Source of the DNA: Pseudonocardia sp. C8
GTDB lineage: Bacteria > Actinomycetota > Actinomycetes > Mycobacteriales > Pseudonocardiaceae
Direction: 5' to 3'
DNA: 64,000 nucleotides
Assembly: GCF_014267175.1 (NCBI RefSeq)
Contig: NZ_JACMTR010000002.1
Span: 4,055,501 to 4,119,500, forward strand
Position 1 is the stretch's first letter, and each line of letters opens with the position of its first letter. The position numbers and the translations under genes were made by a program. The notes under the pieces are model-generated. The model searched no databases. It was given only the letters and a program-made list of their open reading frames with translations, and was not told the origin of the DNA. This document shows positions 3,787 through 62,101 of the stretch, piece by piece.

Positions 3787-4697
3787 CCGCGCCCGCGCAG
3801 TCCCCTGCGCTCGACGCCCTCGACGCGCTCGAGTCGGAGGCGATCCACGTCTTCCGCGAGGTCGCCGGCGAGTTCGACCGCCCGGTGATCCTGTTCTCCG
3901 GCGGCAAGGACTCCACCCTGCTGGTGCACCTGGCCGTCAAGGCGTTCGCCCCGGCCCCGGTGCCGTTCCCGCTGCTGCACGTCGACACCGGGCACAACTA
4001 CCCCGAGGTCATCGAGTTCCGGGACTCCCTCGCCGCCCGGCTGAACCTTCGGCTCGAGGTGGCCCGGGTCGAGGACTACCTGGCCGACGGCCGGCTGGTC
4101 GAGCGCGCCGACGGCACCCGCAACCCGCTGCAGACCCAGCCCCTGCTGGACGCGATCGCCGAGCACCGCTTCGACGCCGTGTTCGGCGGCGGGCGCCGCG
4201 ACGAGGAGCGCGCCCGGGCCAAGGAACGCATCATGAGCCTGCGCGACGCGTTCGGCCGCTGGGACCCGCGCAAGCAGCGCCCGGAGCTGTGGAACCTCTA
4301 CAACGGACGGCACGCGCCCGGCGAGCACGTCCGCGTGTTCCCGATCTCGAACTGGACCGAGCTGGACGTCTGGCGCTACATCAAGCGCGAGAACATCGAG
4401 CTGCCGTCGATCTACTACGCGCACGAGCGCGAGGTCTTCCGCCGCGACGGCATGTGGCTGGCCGAGGGCCCGTGGGGCGGCCCGCGCGACGGGGAGACCC
4501 TCGAGCGGAGGTCCGTGCGGTACCGGACCGTCGGCGACGGCTCGTGCACCGGCGCCGTCGAGTCGACGGCGTCCACCCTGGACGAGGTGATCGCCGAGGT
4601 GACCGCGTCCCGGCTCACCGAGCGCGGCGCCACCCGGGCCGACGACCGGCTGTCCGAGGCCGCCATGGAGGACCGCAAGAAGGAGGGCTACTTCTGA
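3783..4697 (+). CDS. cysD: sulfate adenylyltransferase subunit 2
   Basis: A 304-residue catalytic subunit of ATP sulfurylase, forming APS and pyrophosphate from sulfate and ATP together with the GTPase subunit CysN. The PP-loop SGGKDSTLL is near residues 39-47. FGGGRRDEERARAKERI and the C-terminal MEDRKKEGYF are family hallmarks. GTG at 3783 is taken as the start because AAGGAG lies five bases upstream and the length is normal for the family. The TGA overlaps the cysN ATG by one base (TGATG), so the two subunits should be produced in balance. Confidence 0.95.
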   Translation: MTAPAQSPALDALDALESEAIHVFREVAGEFDRPVILFSGGKDSTLLVHLAVKAFAPAPVPFPLLHVDTGHNYPEVIEFRDSLAARLNLRLEVARVEDYLADGRLVERADGTRNPLQTQPLLDAIAEHRFDAVFGGGRRDEERARAKERIMSLRDAFGRWDPRKQRPELWNLYNGRHAPGEHVRVFPISNWTELDVWRYIKRENIELPSIYYAHEREVFRRDGMWLAEGPWGGPRDGETLERRSVRYRTVGDGSCTGAVESTASTLDEVIAEVTASRLTERGATRADDRLSEAAMEDRKKEGYF

Positions 4698-6013
4698 TGG
4701 TCGACTCGGCCCAGCCCCGCGACCTCCTGCGGTTCGCCACCGCAGGTTCCGTGGACGACGGCAAGTCCACACTGGTCGGCAGGCTGCTCTACGACACCAA
4801 GTCGGTGCTCGCCGACCAGATCGAGGCCGTCGAGCGCGCCTCGGTCGACAAGGGCATGACCACGCCCGACCTGTCGCTGCTCGTCGACGGCCTGCGCGCC
4901 GAGCGCGAGCAGGGCATCACCATCGACGTCGCCTACCGCTACTTCGGCACGCCGTCCCGGGAGTTCGTCCTCGCCGACACCCCCGGGCACGTGCAGTACA
5001 CCCGTAACACCGTCACCGGCGCCTCCACGGCCGAGCTCGCGGTGCTGCTGGTCGACGCCCGCAACGGCGTCGTCGCGCAGACCCGGCGGCACGCCGCGGT
5101 GCTGTCGCTGCTGCGGGTGCCGCGGCTGGTCCTCGCGATCAACAAGATCGACCTCATCGACTACGACGAGGCCAAGATCGCCGGCATCGGCAAGGAGTTC
5201 GTCGAGCTGACCCGCTCGCTGGGCTTCGCCGACGACGCCGTCCAGGTCATCCCGGTCTCGGCGCTGGTCGGCGACAACGTCGCCACCCGCAGCGACGAGA
5301 CCCCCTGGTACGAGGGCCCGACCCTGCTCGAGCACCTCGAGTCGGTGCCGGTCGAGGGGCCGGACGCCGAGGCGCCGTTCCGGCTGCCGGTGCAGTACGT
5401 GATCCGCCCGCGGGCCGCCGCCGGCGCGGCGGGGGACGACCTGCACGACTACCGGGGCTACGCCGGCCAGGTCGCGTCCGGCACCGTGCGGCCCGGGGAC
5501 GAGGTCGTCGTCCTCCCGGAGGGGCACCGCACCACGGTCTCCGAGGTCCGCACGGCCGACGGTCCGCTCGACGGTGCCGGGGCCGGGCTCAGCGTCACCG
5601 TACTGCTGGCCGACGACATCGACGCCCCGCGCGGCGCGATGATCGCCGCCGCGGCCGACCCGCCGGAGGTCACCTCCGAGCTCGACGCGACCCTGTGCTG
5701 GCTTCACGAGAAGCCGCTGGCGCCCGGGGCGCGGCTGCTGCTCAAGCACGGCACCCGCACCACCCAAGTGATCGTCGGTGCGCTGACCTCCCGGCTGGAC
5801 ACCGAGACGGTGTCCTACATCGACGCCCCGGACGAGCTGGCGATCAACGACATCGGACGGGTGTCGCTGCGGGTCGCGGACCCGTTGCCGGTCGACCCGT
5901 ACGCCCGGATCCGGACGACCGGTGGGTTCGTGCTCATCGACCCGCCGACCGGCAACACGCTCGCGGCCGGGCTGGTCGGGGATCCGCTCGCATCCGTGCC
6001 CGCCGCGATCTGA
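4697..6013 (+). CDS. cysN: sulfate adenylyltransferase subunit 1 (GTPase)
   Basis: A 438-residue EF-Tu-like GTPase that drives ATP sulfurylase. G1 is SVDDGKST (about residues 18-25), G3 is DTPGH and G4 is NKID. Domain II/III beta barrels follow, ending near GDPLASV. The length matches stand-alone CysN; the C-terminal APS kinase (CysC) domain seen in many CysNC fusions is absent, consistent with direct APS reduction by CysH. It is the last gene of the overlapping sir-cysH-cysD-cysN unit and is followed 20 bases later by a strong terminator. Confidence 0.95.
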   Translation: MVDSAQPRDLLRFATAGSVDDGKSTLVGRLLYDTKSVLADQIEAVERASVDKGMTTPDLSLLVDGLRAEREQGITIDVAYRYFGTPSREFVLADTPGHVQYTRNTVTGASTAELAVLLVDARNGVVAQTRRHAAVLSLLRVPRLVLAINKIDLIDYDEAKIAGIGKEFVELTRSLGFADDAVQVIPVSALVGDNVATRSDETPWYEGPTLLEHLESVPVEGPDAEAPFRLPVQYVIRPRAAAGAAGDDLHDYRGYAGQVASGTVRPGDEVVVLPEGHRTTVSEVRTADGPLDGAGAGLSVTVLLADDIDAPRGAMIAAAADPPEVTSELDATLCWLHEKPLAPGARLLLKHGTRTTQVIVGALTSRLDTETVSYIDAPDELAINDIGRVSLRVADPLPVDPYARIRTTGGFVLIDPPTGNTLAAGLVGDPLASVPAAI

Positions 6014-6086: not shown

Positions 6087-6250
6087 ACACGTGACAGCCG
6101 GCACGCGGCTCGCGTCTCGCGGCAACCGGCACGCGGCTCGCAGCACGCGACAGCCGGCACGCCGGCACGCCGGCACGCGAGACGCGCGCCACTCGAACGC
6201 GCGGCACGCGCACGCGGCACGCGAAAGGCGGGAACGCGGCACAGGCGCGC
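6087..6250. repeat. low-complexity GGCACGC-rich tract
   Basis: A stretch dominated by CCGGCACGC and GCACGCGGC words, with CCGGCACGC repeated almost without interruption around 6151-6178. It lies between the cysN terminator and the 62-bp array. It codes for nothing recognisable and looks like slippage-generated sequence. Confidence 0.5.
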
Positions 6251-6403
6251 CAGGGCGACGCGGCCGGACCGTGGCGTGCCCGGCCCTCGCCGAGAGGCAG
6301 CCCACGGTTCGCCGAAGATCGACAATTCGCGCTCAGGTGCATCTCGGCGGGGTTGCCGGGCGGGCGTGGCCCTCGCTCGGGTCGCTCATGGCCCGACCTG
6401 CAG

Positions 6404-7080
6404 TCGATCAGCACCGTCCCGCCGCTCCGAGGGCCGGACCGCGCATCTCGCCGCCACCGGTCCCACTCGATGAGCACGGTCATGCCCCATCGAGGGCCGA
6501 ACCGCGCCTCTCGCCACGGCCGACCCCGTCGATCAGCACGAACCCGCCCCTCCGAGGGCCGGGCCGTGCCTCTCGCCGCCGCCGGTCCGGTCGATCAGCA
6601 CGAACCCGCCCCCGGCGGGGCGCCAACGTGCAACTCACCGGAACGACTCCGGTCGATCAACACGAACGCGCCCCACCGAAGGCCGAACCGCGCATCTCGC
6701 CGCCGCCACACCCGTCGATCAACACGAACCCGCCCCGGCCAGGGCCGGATCGTGCATCTCGCCGCCGCCGGTACCGCCGGTCCCGGTCGATCAGCACGAA
6801 CGCGCCCCGGGCGAGGCGCCAACGTGCGCCTCACCGGAGCCCCCGTCGATCAACTCGATCTCGCCCCATCGAGGGCCGAACCGTGCATCTCGCCGCCACA
6901 CCCGTCGATCGGCACACCGGAGGCGGCATCGTGTCCCTTGCCGGGGCCCGACCGGTCGACGCCCACCGTTGTGCCCCGGCGCAGGCCGAATCGCGCGTCT
7001 CACCGCAGCCGACCCCGTCGGTCGCCTTCGTGTCCTCCCTGGCGGTGAGCAGAGACGGGCGAGCGGCGGCACCGCCGACC
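6404..7080 (+). repeat. 62-bp tandem array 1 (about 10-11 stem-loop units)
   Basis: Units starting with TCGATCARCAC begin at 6404, 6467, 6529, 6591, 6653, 6715, 6787, 6846, 6905, 6956 and 7018: spacings 63, 62, 62, 62, 62, 72, 59, 59, 51, 62. Within most units bases 8-41 can pair: for example GCACG with CGTGC and CCCG with CGGG in the unit at 6529, CGCCCC with GGGGCG at 6591, CACGA with TCGTG at 6715. Units differ in sequence but keep pairing. The last copies are degenerate. The period is not a multiple of three and no gene crosses it. A second array of the same family lies at 61185-61556. Function unknown. Confidence 0.85.
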
Positions 7081-7314: not shown

Positions 7315-7467
7315 GTGACCGCGACCGAGACGACCGCCGACCGGACCGCCGTGTCCGGCCGCTCGGCGTCGGACCCGGCGGTCTCCTGGCACCTCGTGGC
7401 GCACCTCGAGCGGTTCTGGCCGTCGCGGCGCATGCACGCGTTCGACGAGTTCTGTCGCGCCTGCTGA
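7315..7467 (+). CDS. 50-residue ORF ending in Cys-Arg-Ala-Cys, upstream of a sulfur transporter
   Basis: GTG to TGA, 50 codons. The C-terminal half (SWHLVAHLERFW, then FDEFCRAC and stop) looks protein-like rather than random, and the last four codons are TGT-CGC-GCC-TGC. It lies 132 bases before the first TauE/SafE gene, after the repeat array. By analogy with the leader peptide before the sulfite reductase it may be a cysteine-sensing leader. It could instead be a free small protein using CxxC for metal or thiol chemistry. No family is recognised. A GAGGGG sequence sits directly at the start, too close for a good ribosome binding site. Confidence 0.5.
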   Translation: MTATETTADRTAVSGRSASDPAVSWHLVAHLERFWPSRRMHAFDEFCRAC

Positions 7468-7599: not shown

Positions 7600-8502
7600 A
7601 TGTTCGACCCCTCCCTCGCTCTCGCCGGACTGCTCGTCGGGTTCCTCGTCGGGCTCACCGGCATGGGCGGTGGTGCCCTGCTGACGCCGCTGCTGGTCCT
7701 GGTCTTCAAGGTCAGCCCGCTGACGGCGATCTCGTCCGATCTCCTCACCTCGCTCGTCATGAAGCCGGTCGGGGCGGCCGTGCACGCGCGGCGCCGCACC
7801 GTCCACTGGCGACTCACCGGCTGGCTGGTGCTGGGTGGCGTCCCGGCCGGGTTCCTCGGCGCGGTGATCGTCGGGATGCTGGGCAAGGGGGTCGGGGTGG
7901 AGGACCGGCTGAAGGTCGTCATCGGGATCGCGCTGGTCGCATCGGTTCTGACCACGCTGTTCCGGCAGGTGATGGACCGGCGTGCCCGCCGCGACAACGC
8001 GGTCGACCACGACGTGCCGATCGACGTCCGCCCGGTGCGGACGGTCCTGATCGGTGTGGTGGGCGGCCTCGCGGTCGGGATGACGTCGGTCGGTGCGGGT
8101 TCGCTGATCATCGCGATGCTGCTGCTGGCCTACCCGCAGCTGCACCCGTCGCGGCTGGTCGGGACGGACATCGTGCAGGCCATCCCGCTCGTCGCCGCCG
8201 CGACCCTGGGCCACCTGTTCTTCGGTGACGTGCAGGTCGGGCTGGCGGTGGCACTGCTGGCCGGTGCGCTGCCGGGGGTCTGGCTCGGTGCCGTCGCCTC
8301 GTCGGCCGGCTCCGGACGCCTGATCAAGCCGGTGGTCACCGCGGTGCTGCTCGCCTCGGCGCTGGCGTTGCTGGGCGTCGGCCAGGCCGGCGTGCTGATC
8401 GGGACCGCGATCGCCGTCGTCGTCACCGTCGCGCTGCTTCCGCGCCGGCAGCAGCCCGCGACGCCCGCCGAGCCGGACCGCCGCCTCGACCCGGTCAGCT
8501 GA
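7600..8502 (+). CDS. TauE/SafE family sulfite/sulfur-compound transporter
   Basis: A 300-residue membrane protein of the TauE/SafE (DUF81) family, which moves sulfite, sulfoacetate or related anions. Two homologous halves are seen: the N-terminal GFLVGLTGMGGGALLTPLL and a second half beginning around residue 147 with GVVGGLAVGMTSVGAGSL, each followed by several hydrophobic helices (eight to nine in total). The ATG at 7600 is preferred because AGGAAGCAGG precedes it; an in-frame upstream ATG at 7546 would add a hydrophilic non-family tail. Next to the assimilatory sulfur operon and a second family member, so sulfate/sulfite traffic is the likely job. Direction of transport cannot be told. Confidence 0.85.
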   Translation: MFDPSLALAGLLVGFLVGLTGMGGGALLTPLLVLVFKVSPLTAISSDLLTSLVMKPVGAAVHARRRTVHWRLTGWLVLGGVPAGFLGAVIVGMLGKGVGVEDRLKVVIGIALVASVLTTLFRQVMDRRARRDNAVDHDVPIDVRPVRTVLIGVVGGLAVGMTSVGAGSLIIAMLLLAYPQLHPSRLVGTDIVQAIPLVAAATLGHLFFGDVQVGLAVALLAGALPGVWLGAVASSAGSGRLIKPVVTAVLLASALALLGVGQAGVLIGTAIAVVVTVALLPRRQQPATPAEPDRRLDPVS

Positions 8503-8507
8503 GCGAG

Positions 8508-8641
8508 GCCCGCCGATCGACATCCCGCACCGCGCGCGGCCCGCCGAGCGACACCCCGGCACCCCGCGCGGCCCGCCGAGCACCACCCCGGCACCGCGCG
8601 CCCGCCGAGCGAACCTCGGCCGGCACCGCACGGCTCGCCGG
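8508..8641. repeat. short tandem repeat of about 31 bp between the two TauE genes
   Basis: The word GCCCGCCGA recurs at 8508, 8539, 8571 and 8600, with a degenerate GCTCGCCGG at 8633, giving spacings of 31, 32, 29 and 33. Each unit continues with a variant of GCGACACCCCGGCACCGCG. It fills the gap between the two transporter genes up to the second gene's ribosome binding site (GAGAGGTAA). The period is half that of the 62-bp arrays, but the sequence is different. Confidence 0.7.
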
Positions 8642-17777: not shown

Positions 17778-17909
17778 CGTGGCCCACGCCCCCGACAACC
17801 GGTGAGCCGCGTCCCGATCGGGCCGGATCGGCTGGCCAGCCACATACCGCGTCGCGTAACGTCTCCGTCGATCCGCGCTGATCTTGGCCGGGTCCACAAC
17901 CGCATATGG

Positions 17910-18060
17910 CTCATCCAGAGGGGCAGAGGGAACGGCCCGTTGAAGCCCCGGCAACCGGCGTCGAGCGACGATCCGCCCACACCTGCGCATCCCCGCGCGG
18001 TGAGGACGTCGACGAACACGGTGCCAATTCCGACCCGCCGACCCCGGCGGGACAGATGAG
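17910..18060 (+). promoter_or_regulatory. SAM riboswitch upstream of thrC
   Basis: The S-adenosylmethionine riboswitch core is readable: P1 CTCATC (17910-17915) pairs with GATGAG (18055-18060); then AGAGGGGCAGAGGGA, GGCCCGTTGAAGCC and CCGGCAACC; an arm closed by CGTCGA/TCGACG; the conserved GGTGCCAATTCC; and a P4 hairpin CCCGCC/GGCGGG before GACAGATGAG. It is of the SAM-I/SAM-IV clan; I cannot decide between them by eye. The 3' strand of P1 overlaps GAGGAG, the ribosome binding site of the GTG eight bases on, so SAM binding should hide the site and block translation. No terminator hairpin is seen, supporting translational control. Confidence 0.88.
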
Positions 18061-18068
18061 GAGATCTC

Positions 18069-56670: not shown

Positions 56671-59600
56671 TCACCCCCCGTCCTGGGGCGGGCCCGCCGG
56701 GCGGGACGCCGCCCGGCGGCGGCGCCGGGGCCGGGCGACGGCCGGGGACGGCTCCGGCTGCTCGGGGACGGCCGGGGCGGGCGCCGCCGGGTCCGCCTCG
56801 GGAACCGACGACGCGGCCGGGACCGACGGCGCCGCCGGGGCGGTCGCGGCCTCCCCGGCCGGGGCCGGGGTGGTGATGACGACCGGTTCGGCGGCCGTGC
56901 GCGGGGCGCCCGCCGAGCGGCTGACCCGGCGCCGGCGCGGTGCCGGGGCGTCGCCGGCCGCGGGGGTGTCCGGCGCGGCCGGGACGGGGGCCGGGGTGGC
57001 GGCGGTGGTCGTGCCATCCCGGTCACCGGCGGTCGCGGGCGCGCCCGGGGTGGGTGCGGTCGGGGTGTCGCGGTCGCCGGCGGCGCGGTCCCCGGCCGGA
57101 GCCGGCGCGGGCGTCGCGCGGCTGTCCGGGGTGGGCGGTGCGGTCGTGCCGCTCTCCGCCACGGGTGCCGGGGTGGCGCCGCGCTCCCCCGACGGCGCGG
57201 TGGCGCCGCGCTCCGGCGACGGCGCGGTGGCGCCGCCCTCCCGCGAGGGCGCGGCGGCGCCGCCCTCGGGAGCAGGCCCGGCGGTGGGGCCGGCCTCGGT
57301 GTCCGTGGCCGGCGCGGGCGCAGCGTCGACCACGGTGCTGTCCCCGGTGCTGGGGACCGAGGAACCGGCGGATGCGCCGTCGTCACCCCGGAGGCTGCGG
57401 CCCGCGGCGACCGCCGCGACCCCGGCGACCGCGGAGCTGGTGTCGACGCTGCGGTCGGCCTGCCCGTTCCGCTCGGAGCTGCGGTCGGAGCCGGTGCTGC
57501 CGTTCGCCCCGCCGCCGGAGTCACCGCCCCCGCCGCCACGACGCCTGCGGCGGCGTCCCCCGCCGTCGCCGTTGCCGCCGTCGGAGCCGCTCACGCGGCC
57601 GTCACCGTGGGAGTGCTCCACCGGCAGGTCCGTCGAGACGATCACGCCCCGGCCCCGGCAGTGCTCGCACGGCGTGGAGAAGTTCTCCAGCAGCCCGCCG
57701 CCGACCCGCTTGCGGGTCAGCTGCACCAGGCCCAGCGAGGTCACCTCGGCGACCTGGTGGCGGGTCCGGTCCCGGGCGAGGCACTCGGTGAGCCGGCGCA
57801 GCACCAGGTCCCGGTTGGCCTCCAGCACCATGTCGATGAAGTCGACGACGATGATCCCGCCGATGTCCCGGAGCCGGAGCTGGCGGACGATCTCCTCCGC
57901 CGCCTCCAGGTTGTTCCGGGTGACGGTCTCCTCGAGGTTGCCGCCGGAGCCGGTGAACTTGCCGGTGTTGACGTCGACGACGGTCATCGCCTCGGTCCGG
58001 TCGATCACCAGCGTGCCGCCGGACGGCAGCCAGACCTTGCGGTCCAGCGCCTTGAGCAGCTGCTCGTCGATCCGGTGCTCGGTGAAGACGTCGGACGGCC
58101 CGGTGTGCCGGTGCATCCGGTCGGTCAGCTCGGGCGCCACGTGCTCGACGTAGCCGGAGACGGTGTCCCAGGCGTCGGCGCCGGACACGACCAGCTTCGA
58201 GAAGTCCTCGTTGAACTGGTCACGGACCACCTTGACCAGCATGTCCGGCTCCTCGTACAGGAGCGTCGGCGCCTTCGGCGCGCCCGGACCGGTCTTCTCG
58301 GAACGTTCCTTGACGACCTCCCACTGCGCCTGCAGGCGGCGGACGTCGCGCTCCAGCGCCTCGTGCGAGACGCCCTCGGACGCCGTGCGGATGATCACCC
58401 CGGCCTCGGACGGGACGATCTCCTTCAGCATCTCCTTGAGCCGCTTGCGCTCGGTGTCGGGCAGCTTGCGGGAGATCCCGGCGGCACCGCCGGAGGGCAC
58501 GTAGACCAGGAACCGGCCGGCGAGCGAGATCTGCGTGGTCAGCCGGGCACCCTTGTGACCGACCGGGTCCTTGGTGACCTGCACCAGGACCTGGTCGCCG
58601 GACGACAGCGCCTGCTCGATCTTGCGGGCCTTGCCGTTGAGCCCGGCGGCGTCCCAGTTGACCTCGCCGGCGTAGAGGACGGCGTTGCGGCCGCGGCCGA
58701 TGTCGACGAACGCCGCCTCCATCGACGGCAGCACGTTCTGCACCCGGCCGAGGTAGATGTTGCCGACCATGCTCGCGCTGCCGGAGCCGCCGCCGGTCAT
58801 GAAGTGCTCGACGAGGACGCCGTCCTCCAGCACCCCGATCTCGGTGCGGTCGGCCAGCTGGCGGATCACCATCTGCCGGTCGACCGACTCGCGGCGGGCC
58901 AGGAACTCGGCCTCGGACAGGATCGGCGGGCGCCGGCGGCCCGCGTCACGGCCGTCCCGGCGGCGCTGGCGCTTCGCCTCGAGCCGGGTGGAGCCGCGGA
59001 CGGCCTGGACGCCGTCGTCGGCCGCGTCGGTGCGGGCCTCGCGGACCTTCGTGACGGTGTTCGGCGGGTCGTCCTCGGAGCGGTCCTCGGCCTCGGAGCC
59101 CCCGCGACGGCGGCGGCGACGGCGGCGGCGGGAACCGGCCGACCCCTGGTCCTCGCTCGCGGTGGCCCCGGAGTCGGAGCCGGCCTCGTCGTCGGAGTCC
59201 TCGGTGGCGGTGCTGTCGGTGCCGGCGGTGCTGTCCTCGGACTCGTCGTCGGACTCGTCGTACCCGTTCTCGCCCTGCTCGTCGCCGCCCTTGCCGCGAC
59301 CACGGCCGCGGCGGCCACGGCGGCGCCTGCGGCGGGCGCCGCCCTCGTCGTCGTCGGCGCTCTCGCCGGAGTCGGCGGCGTCCCTCGTGTCGGTGTCGTC
59401 GTCGGTGTCGTCGGCCGCCGCCTCGGGGGCCGGGGCCTCGCCTGCGGTCTCGCCCTCGTCGTCGCGCTTCTTCTTGCGGGACCTGCGGCCCTTCTTGCCG
59501 GTGTCGGCGGGCTCGTCGGCGGCCGGTTCGGCCGCGGGCCGCGCCGGGGCCGGGGTGGTCGCACTCGGCGCCTGGAACATCGGCACCGCGAACACCGGGG

Positions 59601-61074: not shown

Positions 61075-61184
61075 GGATCCGAGTCTAGGAGCAGACCGGT
61101 ACCGCGAAGCCTTCGGGAGCACGCCCGCCGTGCTCGCGCAGGCCGCCCGGGACCTGGAGAAGAGCGGCGGCCGCGCGCCTCCGA

Positions 61185-61556
61185 CTCGATCAGCACGGAT
61201 CCGCCCCGCCGGCCCGACGACGGGTGCGGCAACACCCTTCCCGGGAGTCGATCAGCGCGTTCCGGTCCCCGCCGGGGCGACAGCGTGCGCACCGACCAAC
61301 GCCCGCGAGTCGATCAACACCATCTCGCCCCGGTGGGGGCGATAACGTGCACGCCGACCGGCGCCCGCAACTCGATCAGCACAGTTCCGCCCACCTCGGG
61401 GCGAGAACGTGCGCCCCGGACCCCGCCACGGACTCGATCAGCACGTTCCTGCCTCCGCCGGGGCGACAACGCGCACGCCGACCCGCGCCCGCAACCCGAC
61501 CAGCACAGTTCCGCCCACCTCGGGGCGAGAACGTGCGCCCGACGGACGCGCGCTAC
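61185..61556 (+). repeat. 62-bp tandem array 2 (six stem-loop units)
   Basis: Units begin at 61185, 61247, 61309, 61371, 61433 and 61495, an exact 62-base period. Each opens with CTCGATCAGCAC or a close variant (GTCGATCAACAC, CCCGACCAGCAC). Bases 8-41 of each unit can pair: GCAC/GTGC plus GTTC/GAAC plus GCCC/GGGC at 61371 and 61495; TCGCCCC/GGGGCGA at 61309; GCACGTT/AACGCGC at 61433. Consensus head and period match array 1 (6404-7080), 55 kb away. It fills most of the gap between the DUF2344 start and the GNAT stop. Both arrays have the same strand orientation. Confidence 0.85.
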
Positions 61557-62101
61557 GGCTCCAGCACCAGCAGCGTGTCGCCGGCGGGCCGGAACCCGGC
61601 CCGCTTGTAGAACGCGGCGCTGCCGGCCGTCGGCGCCAGCATCAGCCGCCGGTACCCGCGCTCCCGGGCGTGCGCGACGACCGCGGACAGCAGCGCCCGC
61701 GGCACCCCGGCCTCGGCGAACGCCGCCAGCACGAACGCGTTCCCGACCTGCCCGGTCCGGGCGCCGCGTCCCCCCGGGCGGGGCATCTGCACGGTCTCCA
61801 GCACGTTGATCGAGCCGATCGGCGTCCAGCCGGCCCGGTCGCTGCCGGCCTCGGCGACCCAGAACGCGCGGCGGGGCTGCTCGACCCGCCACCACGCCGC
61901 GAACGCCTCCTCGAACGCCGGGTCGGCGACCGCACGCCCGGCCCGCTCCTCCAGCCACTGCCGGCGCAGCCGGGCCAGCGCGGCGACGTCCCGCTCGTCG
62001 GCGACCCGGACCCGCAGCCGCCGGCCGCCGTGCTCCCAGTCCGCGTCGCCGTCGAGGACGCCGGGGTCGGGGATCGAGGACAGTCCGTTCTGCTCAGTCA
62101 C
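61553..62101 (-). CDS. GNAT-family N-acetyltransferase
   Basis: A 182-residue acetyltransferase. The GNAT fold is recognised in RVADERDVAALARLRRQWLEER at the N-terminus, the acetyl-CoA site around TGQVGNAFVLAAFAEAGVPRALL (core VLAAFAEAGVPRAL) and AGSAAFYKRAGFRPA at the end. Substrate unknown. The GTG overlaps the radical SAM stop (GTGACTGA, eight bases), so it is coupled to that gene. Confidence 0.82.
   Translation of the reverse strand: MTEQNGLSSIPDPGVLDGDADWEHGGRRLRVRVADERDVAALARLRRQWLEERAGRAVADPAFEEAFAAWWRVEQPRRAFWVAEAGSDRAGWTPIGSINVLETVQMPRPGGRGARTGQVGNAFVLAAFAEAGVPRALLSAVVAHARERGYRRLMLAPTAGSAAFYKRAGFRPAGDTLLVLEP

Follow-up and report, generated by a model that had tools for sequence, protein, structure and literature searches.

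CRISPR arrays are built of near-identical repeats that alternate with spacers of 25–40 nt and are accompanied by cas genes. In mycobacteria, the MIRU/VNTR repeats occupy many intergenic tandem-repeat loci of an actinobacterial genome, and the number of units at these loci varies. REP and BIME elements are described in two papers as palindromic and extragenic sequences of high copy number, which are found near the 3' ends of genes or between convergent genes, have a few copies inside ORFs and in some cases form regular clusters (PMC3733652; PMC2817692). Binding of gyrase by BIME-2 is reported in the same texts (PMC3733652; PMC2817692), and in the first of them the REPs with a CGTC tag seem to be without a dedicated transposase too (PMC3733652).

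In this paper we looked at a palindromic tandem repeat from a Pseudonocardia of the soil, found in a stretch of 64,000 nucleotides (the window, meaning the whole of the DNA that was analysed) which is part of a 6.11-Mb contig of the genome G000. The repeat resembles REP and BIME elements in being palindromic, extragenic, present in 418 units, enriched in gaps between convergent genes and depleted between divergent ones; its dyad of 48 bp is somewhat longer than the 20–40 bp given for these elements, whose copy number is put at more than 100, but on the whole the description fits. The differences are also clear. The unit has neither a GTAG nor a CGTC tag (a CGTC tag requires a C at -2, which 16% of the 173 seed matches have, and a conserved GTAG is lacking), its arrays run mostly in one orientation at a fixed 62-bp pitch whereas BIME units alternate in orientation, and the stems in G000 have decayed without compensation. 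The host is an actinobacterium, and the word "Actinobacteria" is absent from the main text of both PMC3733652 and PMC2817692. The Y1/RAYT transposase family (PF01797) gave no match in any of the eight genomes with repeated matches to the unit model (the carriers: G000, G002, G026, G061, G070, G073, G074 and G079); among the 62 genomes of the genus it occurs in five (G003, G008, G014, G019 and G021), none of which is a carrier, and a REP transposon with its RAYT was therefore ruled out. As the single-copy relatives described below are REP-like in place and shape while the tag and the transposase are missing, we call the repeat REP/BIME-like, of a new sort.

With MIRU/VNTR loci, as these are generally known, the repeat shares the many intergenic tandem-repeat loci that vary in unit number, but each of its units is a dyad that combines a conserved word with a linker that changes fast, and this word is all that different arrays have in common. 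With CRISPR it shares the regular alternation of conserved and variable segments, but its 66 loci have a variable part of just ~14 bp, conservation within the unit is patchy and the units differ throughout. No such repeat was described in the literature searched, which lay mostly outside the subscription journals.

Arrays of the window and their place in the genome

The well-conserved part of array 1 (6404..6893, + strand), delimited by pattern and position weight matrix (PWM) matches and by Tandem Repeats Finder (TRF), holds eight units of a 48-bp dyad plus linker that start at 6404, 6467, 6529, 6591, 6653, 6715, 6787 and 6846. A decayed part (6905..7065, +) follows, in which register and sequence identify units at 6905 and 6956, the latter with a PWM scan score of 23, and a remnant at 7018. 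Array 2 (61186..61543, +), found by TRF, pattern and register, has six units, starting at 61186 (weak), 61248, 61310, 61372, 61434 and 61496. An earlier note on this DNA had claimed a 62-bp tandem array at 6404, and both TRF and the pattern search against shuffled sequence bear this out: TRF gives a 62-bp period at 6403–6770 (5.9 copies, score 343) and, for array 2, 6.0 copies at 61174–61543 (score 287), and the window contains 23 copies of the word TCGATCARCAC with up to one mismatch where 1.63 would be expected; none of 100 shuffles reached 23. The spacings it had listed for array 1 (63, 62, 62, 62, 62, 72, 59, 59, 51 and 62) agree with the unit starts from 6404 to 7018, and it was right that no coding gene explains the array, since a codon-usage gene caller places no gene over array 1 or array 2.

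Upstream of array 1 lies a gene at 4697..6013 (+; ORF and codon-usage gene call), a putative cysN by the name that the earlier note gave it, and downstream a gene at 7600..8502 (+; ORF and gene call) that is permease-like by eye, with a short 50-codon gene call ahead of it at 7315–7467. The gene call at 61553..62101 (-), acetyltransferase-like by eye, has its 3' end 9 bp from array 2. Directly past cysN and upstream of array 1, positions 6088–6242 hold GC-rich tandem repeats of periods 7, 15 and 28 (CACGCGGCACGCG type), which by eye differ from the 62-bp units; TRF reports more tandem repeats with periods of 32 at 8503–8640 and 27 at 57140–57284. A SAM riboswitch at 17908–18062 exceeds its Rfam gathering score.

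The array of the window is one of many in the genome and no local oddity. A search of G000 with two seed words 45–60 bp apart gave 103 matches and the reversed pattern none. The 66 loci fetched from these matches together with model and pattern matches contain 418 PWM units (0 in reversed sequence), with at least two units at 63 of them, and they are a lower bound, as further arrays exist in G000, for example at 197643 and 3047689. The spacing is rigid, with 62 bp in 286 of 352 cases, 63 bp in 22 and 61 bp in 7, and rows reach up to 15 units per array. The unit is an imperfect 48-bp dyad of the form TCGATCARCACG...GCCC...GGGC...CGTGCnnCTCG followed by a free linker of ~14 bp, and 68 diverse units give the consensus nGTCGATCAGCACGnTCCCGCCCCGnCCnGGGCGAnAACGTGCAnCTCGnC. 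On its left side the dyad carries TCGA, GCACG and GCCC, on its right side GGGC, CGTGC and nTCG, with variable bases between them. The TCGATCARCAC seed belongs to the left half, which varies less than the right one and thereby gives an array its direction; of the 34 arrays scored at first, 33 have most of their units on one strand, and L038 is about even.

Along the chromosome the gaps between loci have a coefficient of variation (CV) of 0.97, like random placement, which rules out an even spacing, and by eye the array strands show no obvious switch along the contig that would mark a replication-strand polarity; dnaA was absent from the first six gene calls of contig C2. Carriage by a plasmid or phage was rejected after a blastn search of array 1 against plasmid and phage records gave no match. 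The 134.6-kb contig C1 of G000 has 0 matches, though by its length ~1.5 loci would be expected, and six stretches of viral contigs with the two seed words contain no unit at a PWM score of 10.

The loci are intergenic in 65 of 66 cases; the exception is L033, where the upstream gene has a frame that remains open across the array. With gene calls taken from a codon-usage script rather than from an annotation, these 65 loci fall into 22 between convergent, 36 between same-strand and 7 between divergent genes. Compared with the other 151 gaps that are 100 bp or longer (all counted gaps minus the arrays), convergent gaps are enriched (p = 0.0004) and divergent gaps depleted (p = 0.0006), so promoters are avoided. 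No significant strand preference was seen relative to same-strand neighbours (21 arrays run along with these neighbours and 15 opposite to them, p = 0.41). Of the single palindromes in G002 and G026, 13 of 19 lie between convergent genes, and those at L075 and L081 touch both stop codons. In G026, two are placed within gene calls, by eye cobG-like (L080) and scpB-like (L086), and others of the two genomes lie between same-strand or divergent calls.

Folding potential and helical register

The earlier note had proposed that the unit folds into a hairpin and that differing units change both arms together. The first part stands for 11 of 14 window units (8 from array 1, whose decayed units were excluded, and 6 from array 2), while units 6653, 6846 and 61186 do not fold. 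The second part fails: over the same 14 units stem complementarity is 0.681 against 0.701 with shuffled partners (p(>=) = 0.992). RNAalifold, the check that had been suggested, predicts 0 pairs on 68 diverse G000 units, and with the hairpin imposed 76.7% of the cells pair against 77.8% with shuffled partners, at a covariation score of 0.045 against 0.057. Among 186 non-redundant G000 units the mutual information between stem partners never exceeds the shuffled maximum; the best value of any dyad pair, 0.12 for 16–31, stays below the null maximum of 0.139, and these two positions pair less often than expected. In 161 non-redundant units the Watson–Crick fraction of the stem is 0.549 against 0.567 shuffled, a slight deficit that may come from the score threshold, because a weak half needs a strong partner half for the unit to be called. 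The refuting outcome that the earlier note had set for itself, a lack of covariation over background in the aligned units, is what G000 shows. Selection on a folded RNA or single-stranded DNA structure, as had been suggested, is thus not borne out for G000, and such a structure was ruled out for its arrays by the lack of covariation in several unit sets. The units behave as hairpin look-alikes, with paired arms but no compensatory change, and may be duplex dyads.

The structural reading is not dead for the single-copy relatives and for G070, unlike for G000. In the stretches examined, G002, G026, G079, G073 and G074 have single near-perfect palindromes, and in 24 of these (the remainder of 36 after similar ones were removed) positions 4–6 (p < 0.001) and 12–16 (p = 0.002) co-vary and the whole stem reaches 0.756 against 0.717 shuffled (p = 0.001). 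In G070, where single palindromes and arrays occur together, 30 units without the scpB array give 0.679 against 0.639 (p = 0.001), but this set mixes two subfamilies, the GCCC type and a sister type, so part of its covariation is a difference between subfamilies; the low value obtained for G061 is uninformative, as its units were unoriented beforehand. The median hairpin z goes from -5.67 in the single-copy species (36 sites) over -3.54 in G070 (36) and -2.09 in G061 (60 sampled) to -1.25 in G000 (90 sampled, of which 32% have z < -2). Hairpin potential therefore fades from the single-copy species to G000 while the motif words persist.

One explanation is that the repeat acts in RNA, as a bidirectional terminator or as a hairpin that stabilises 3' ends between convergent genes. 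This would agree with the convergent placement of the G000 arrays and of most single palindromes, among them the two that touch both stops, and with the strong folding and the covariation of the single-copy sites and the 30 G070 units. Yet the G000 units show no covariation and mostly fold poorly, their arrays have no significant strand bias, termination needs no row of up to 15 units, and Rfam covariance models run on the window leave the arrays unmatched at the gathering threshold, which the SAM riboswitch at 17908 alone reaches. With neither an Rfam match of the window arrays nor compensatory change in G000, the repeat does not group with the structured non-coding RNAs, and we consider an RNA-level element unlikely.

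A reading that fits these data better is that the unit is an extragenic palindromic repeat which would act as double-stranded DNA. The 48-bp dyad could then represent two half-sites, with TCGA, GCACG and GCCC on each side about a helical turn apart, for a putative dimeric DNA-binding protein. In this lineage, local amplification would have turned single palindromes into rows of head-to-tail units at a 62-bp pitch, and since this is ~5.9 turns, neighbouring dimers would sit on nearly the same face and could bind together. The likeliest role would be BIME-like, in chromosome architecture or in the local control of supercoiling between transcription units. The independent conservation of the half-sites, the rigid pitch, the lack of a significant strand preference and the avoidance of promoters point to a duplex target of a dimeric protein. 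Protein binding, the dimeric state, cooperativity and the architectural role are inferred; the lack of compensatory change in G000 is what would be expected if half-sites are independent and read on the duplex. We give a probability of about one half to the view that a REP/BIME-like palindrome has multiplied into rows of duplex binding sites for such a protein, set in helical phase. Against it, the regular spacing could also persist through homogenisation of the arrays by unequal crossing over, in line with linkers being more alike within arrays than between them, and a hairpin accounts for the covariation in the single-copy species and G070 no worse than a symmetric duplex site does.

The same DNA face for all units had been claimed from the period, and the rigid 62 bp fits this, but the support from off-register units is weak. 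When recurrences of one spacing within a locus are counted once, spacings outside 61–63 bp depart from 62 in steps of 10.5 bp with p = 0.011 (23 events up to 95 bp) or p = 0.039 (31 events up to 118 bp), values for which the indels may lack independence, and a period scan is best at 11.0–11.25 rather than 10.5. A step of ~10.5 bp is suggestive only.

Selection and turnover among species

That the unit is under selection, as the earlier note had it, agrees with the changes among copies of the same array. In 302 same-array unit pairs, picked by linker similarity alone, the differences per site are 0.123 in the motif, 0.382 in the inner variable bases and 0.205 in the linkers, and of the 49 arrays from which such pairs come, 43 show smaller differences in the motif than in the linker; the contrast is inflated because the motif positions were defined from the very units tested. 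An earlier count with 268 near-duplicate pairs gave 0.085, 0.292 and 0.305, respectively. Judged from these comparisons, the motif words are under purifying selection. Linker identity is 0.51 within and 0.36 between arrays, which means that arrays grow locally.

Regular head-to-tail arrays with variable linkers, alike within an array, could be expected of a CRISPR-like locus or of a plain VNTR made by chance tandem duplication without selection. This reading is already disfavoured by genome-wide recurrence and motif conservation: one word is found at 66 loci and in eight species and is specifically conserved, and the variable part amounts to ~14 bp only. We regard it as very improbable.

A scan of 84,980 genomes, from which the window's own genome may be excluded, found the exact core palindrome in 7 stretches, which without exception belong to Pseudonocardia, namely to P. 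parietis DSM 45256 and to sp. ICBG1293. With up to three mismatches, the core occurs in the 62 genomes of the genus 301 times in G000, 79 in G061, 23 in G070, 13 in G079, 11 in G026, 10 each in G073 and G076, 8 in G002, 4 in G074, 3 in G015 and 0–2 in the others. Elsewhere in the family, 15 of 272 genomes contain a single match, compared with 5 genomes in the reversed control, and 149 other genomes of the order have no core match at up to one mismatch. Seven of the carriers belong to the eight relatives that are closest in LepA identity (93–95%). The sister species G062 (94%) has neither pattern nor model matches; G076 (86%) is outside the closest group, and its ten core-pattern matches go with one weak model match, possibly from another diverged variant. 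A strong palindrome was absent at four orthologous places in G062 and four in G074, in a scan that is insensitive, as it missed the G072 sites too.

Arrays of the same period in other genomes, which the earlier note would have counted as support, are present in the relatives G061 (62 bp 53 times, 61 bp 19 times) and G070 (62 bp 7 times, 61 bp once), so the period is kept across three species. For ten of 67 site loci of other species, which correspond to 6 distinct places in G000, the genes on the flanks match genes within 800 bp of a G000 array. At the three shared places compared, the unit counts differ and the units look unalike by eye; the numbers of PWM units across species are 1, 1 and 7 at one place and 5, 2 and 5 at another, and next to a prmC-like gene G026 and G079 have one palindrome while G000 has five units. 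Arrays thus share places with relatives while the units turn over. Five of the eight G002 sites are at places common to G026. Among the comparisons listed, the site at a trpF-like locus is present in G026 and G079 and absent in G002 and G070, and that of L074 is present in G002 and absent in G026 and G079.

Another hypothesis is that of a satellite-like or selfish repeat without host function, in which recombination spreads the palindromes and the motif is kept since a putative mobilising enzyme copies only units that bear it. The turnover of units at shared places, the presence and absence of sites among species, the two G026 palindromes inside gene calls and the copy number of 4 to 301 among carriers are in its favour. 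It remains doubtful to us, as the Y1/RAYT transposase is found in none of the eight carriers, most G002 sites are at places common to G026, and dead copies would not be expected to keep the motif under purifying selection, as copies within one array do.

The duplex reading can be extended tentatively to a bacterial "satellite" system in some Pseudonocardia, which we think possible rather than probable: a putative sequence-specific nucleoid protein on phased dyad rows at ~70 stations might organise the chromosome, with a site that evolves by lineage, as is suggested by diverged palindromes of the same 48-bp frame in other Pseudonocardia. Should a protein indeed bind, the genome would provide over 400 natural sites, set in a rigid register, for finding a new factor that organises or supercoils the chromosome in Actinobacteria. 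The clade is a natural series from a single perfect palindrome to a phased array, in which the loss of the hairpin upon stacking can be tested.

At one locus, represented by L073 5308–6388 (G002) and L171 602–1723 (G073), two palindromes ~1 kb apart flank a DUF559-type gene. The DUF559 endonuclease at L073 was rejected as a partner of the repeat, as the family is found in all 12 genomes tried, with and without sites. An array of G070 lies inside a scpB-like frame (L165 1472–1880): six palindromes, the first weak, follow each other in an open frame of the N-terminal part of the gene at a spacing of exactly 72 bp, repeated five times. This is a multiple of 3 and one helical turn above 62, and in the protein it would give a repeat of 24 residues. 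A sister palindrome, CGAGTGTCACGTT...AACGTGACACTCG, has a similar frame with different inner arms and, with up to three mismatches, occurs 8 times in G070, 7 in G072, 3 in G035, 2 in G084 and once each in G061 and G001. Its loci include L204, L205 and L216 (G070), L215 (G001), L217 (G072), L218 (G035) and L219 (G084), and it is thus found beyond the carrier clade too.
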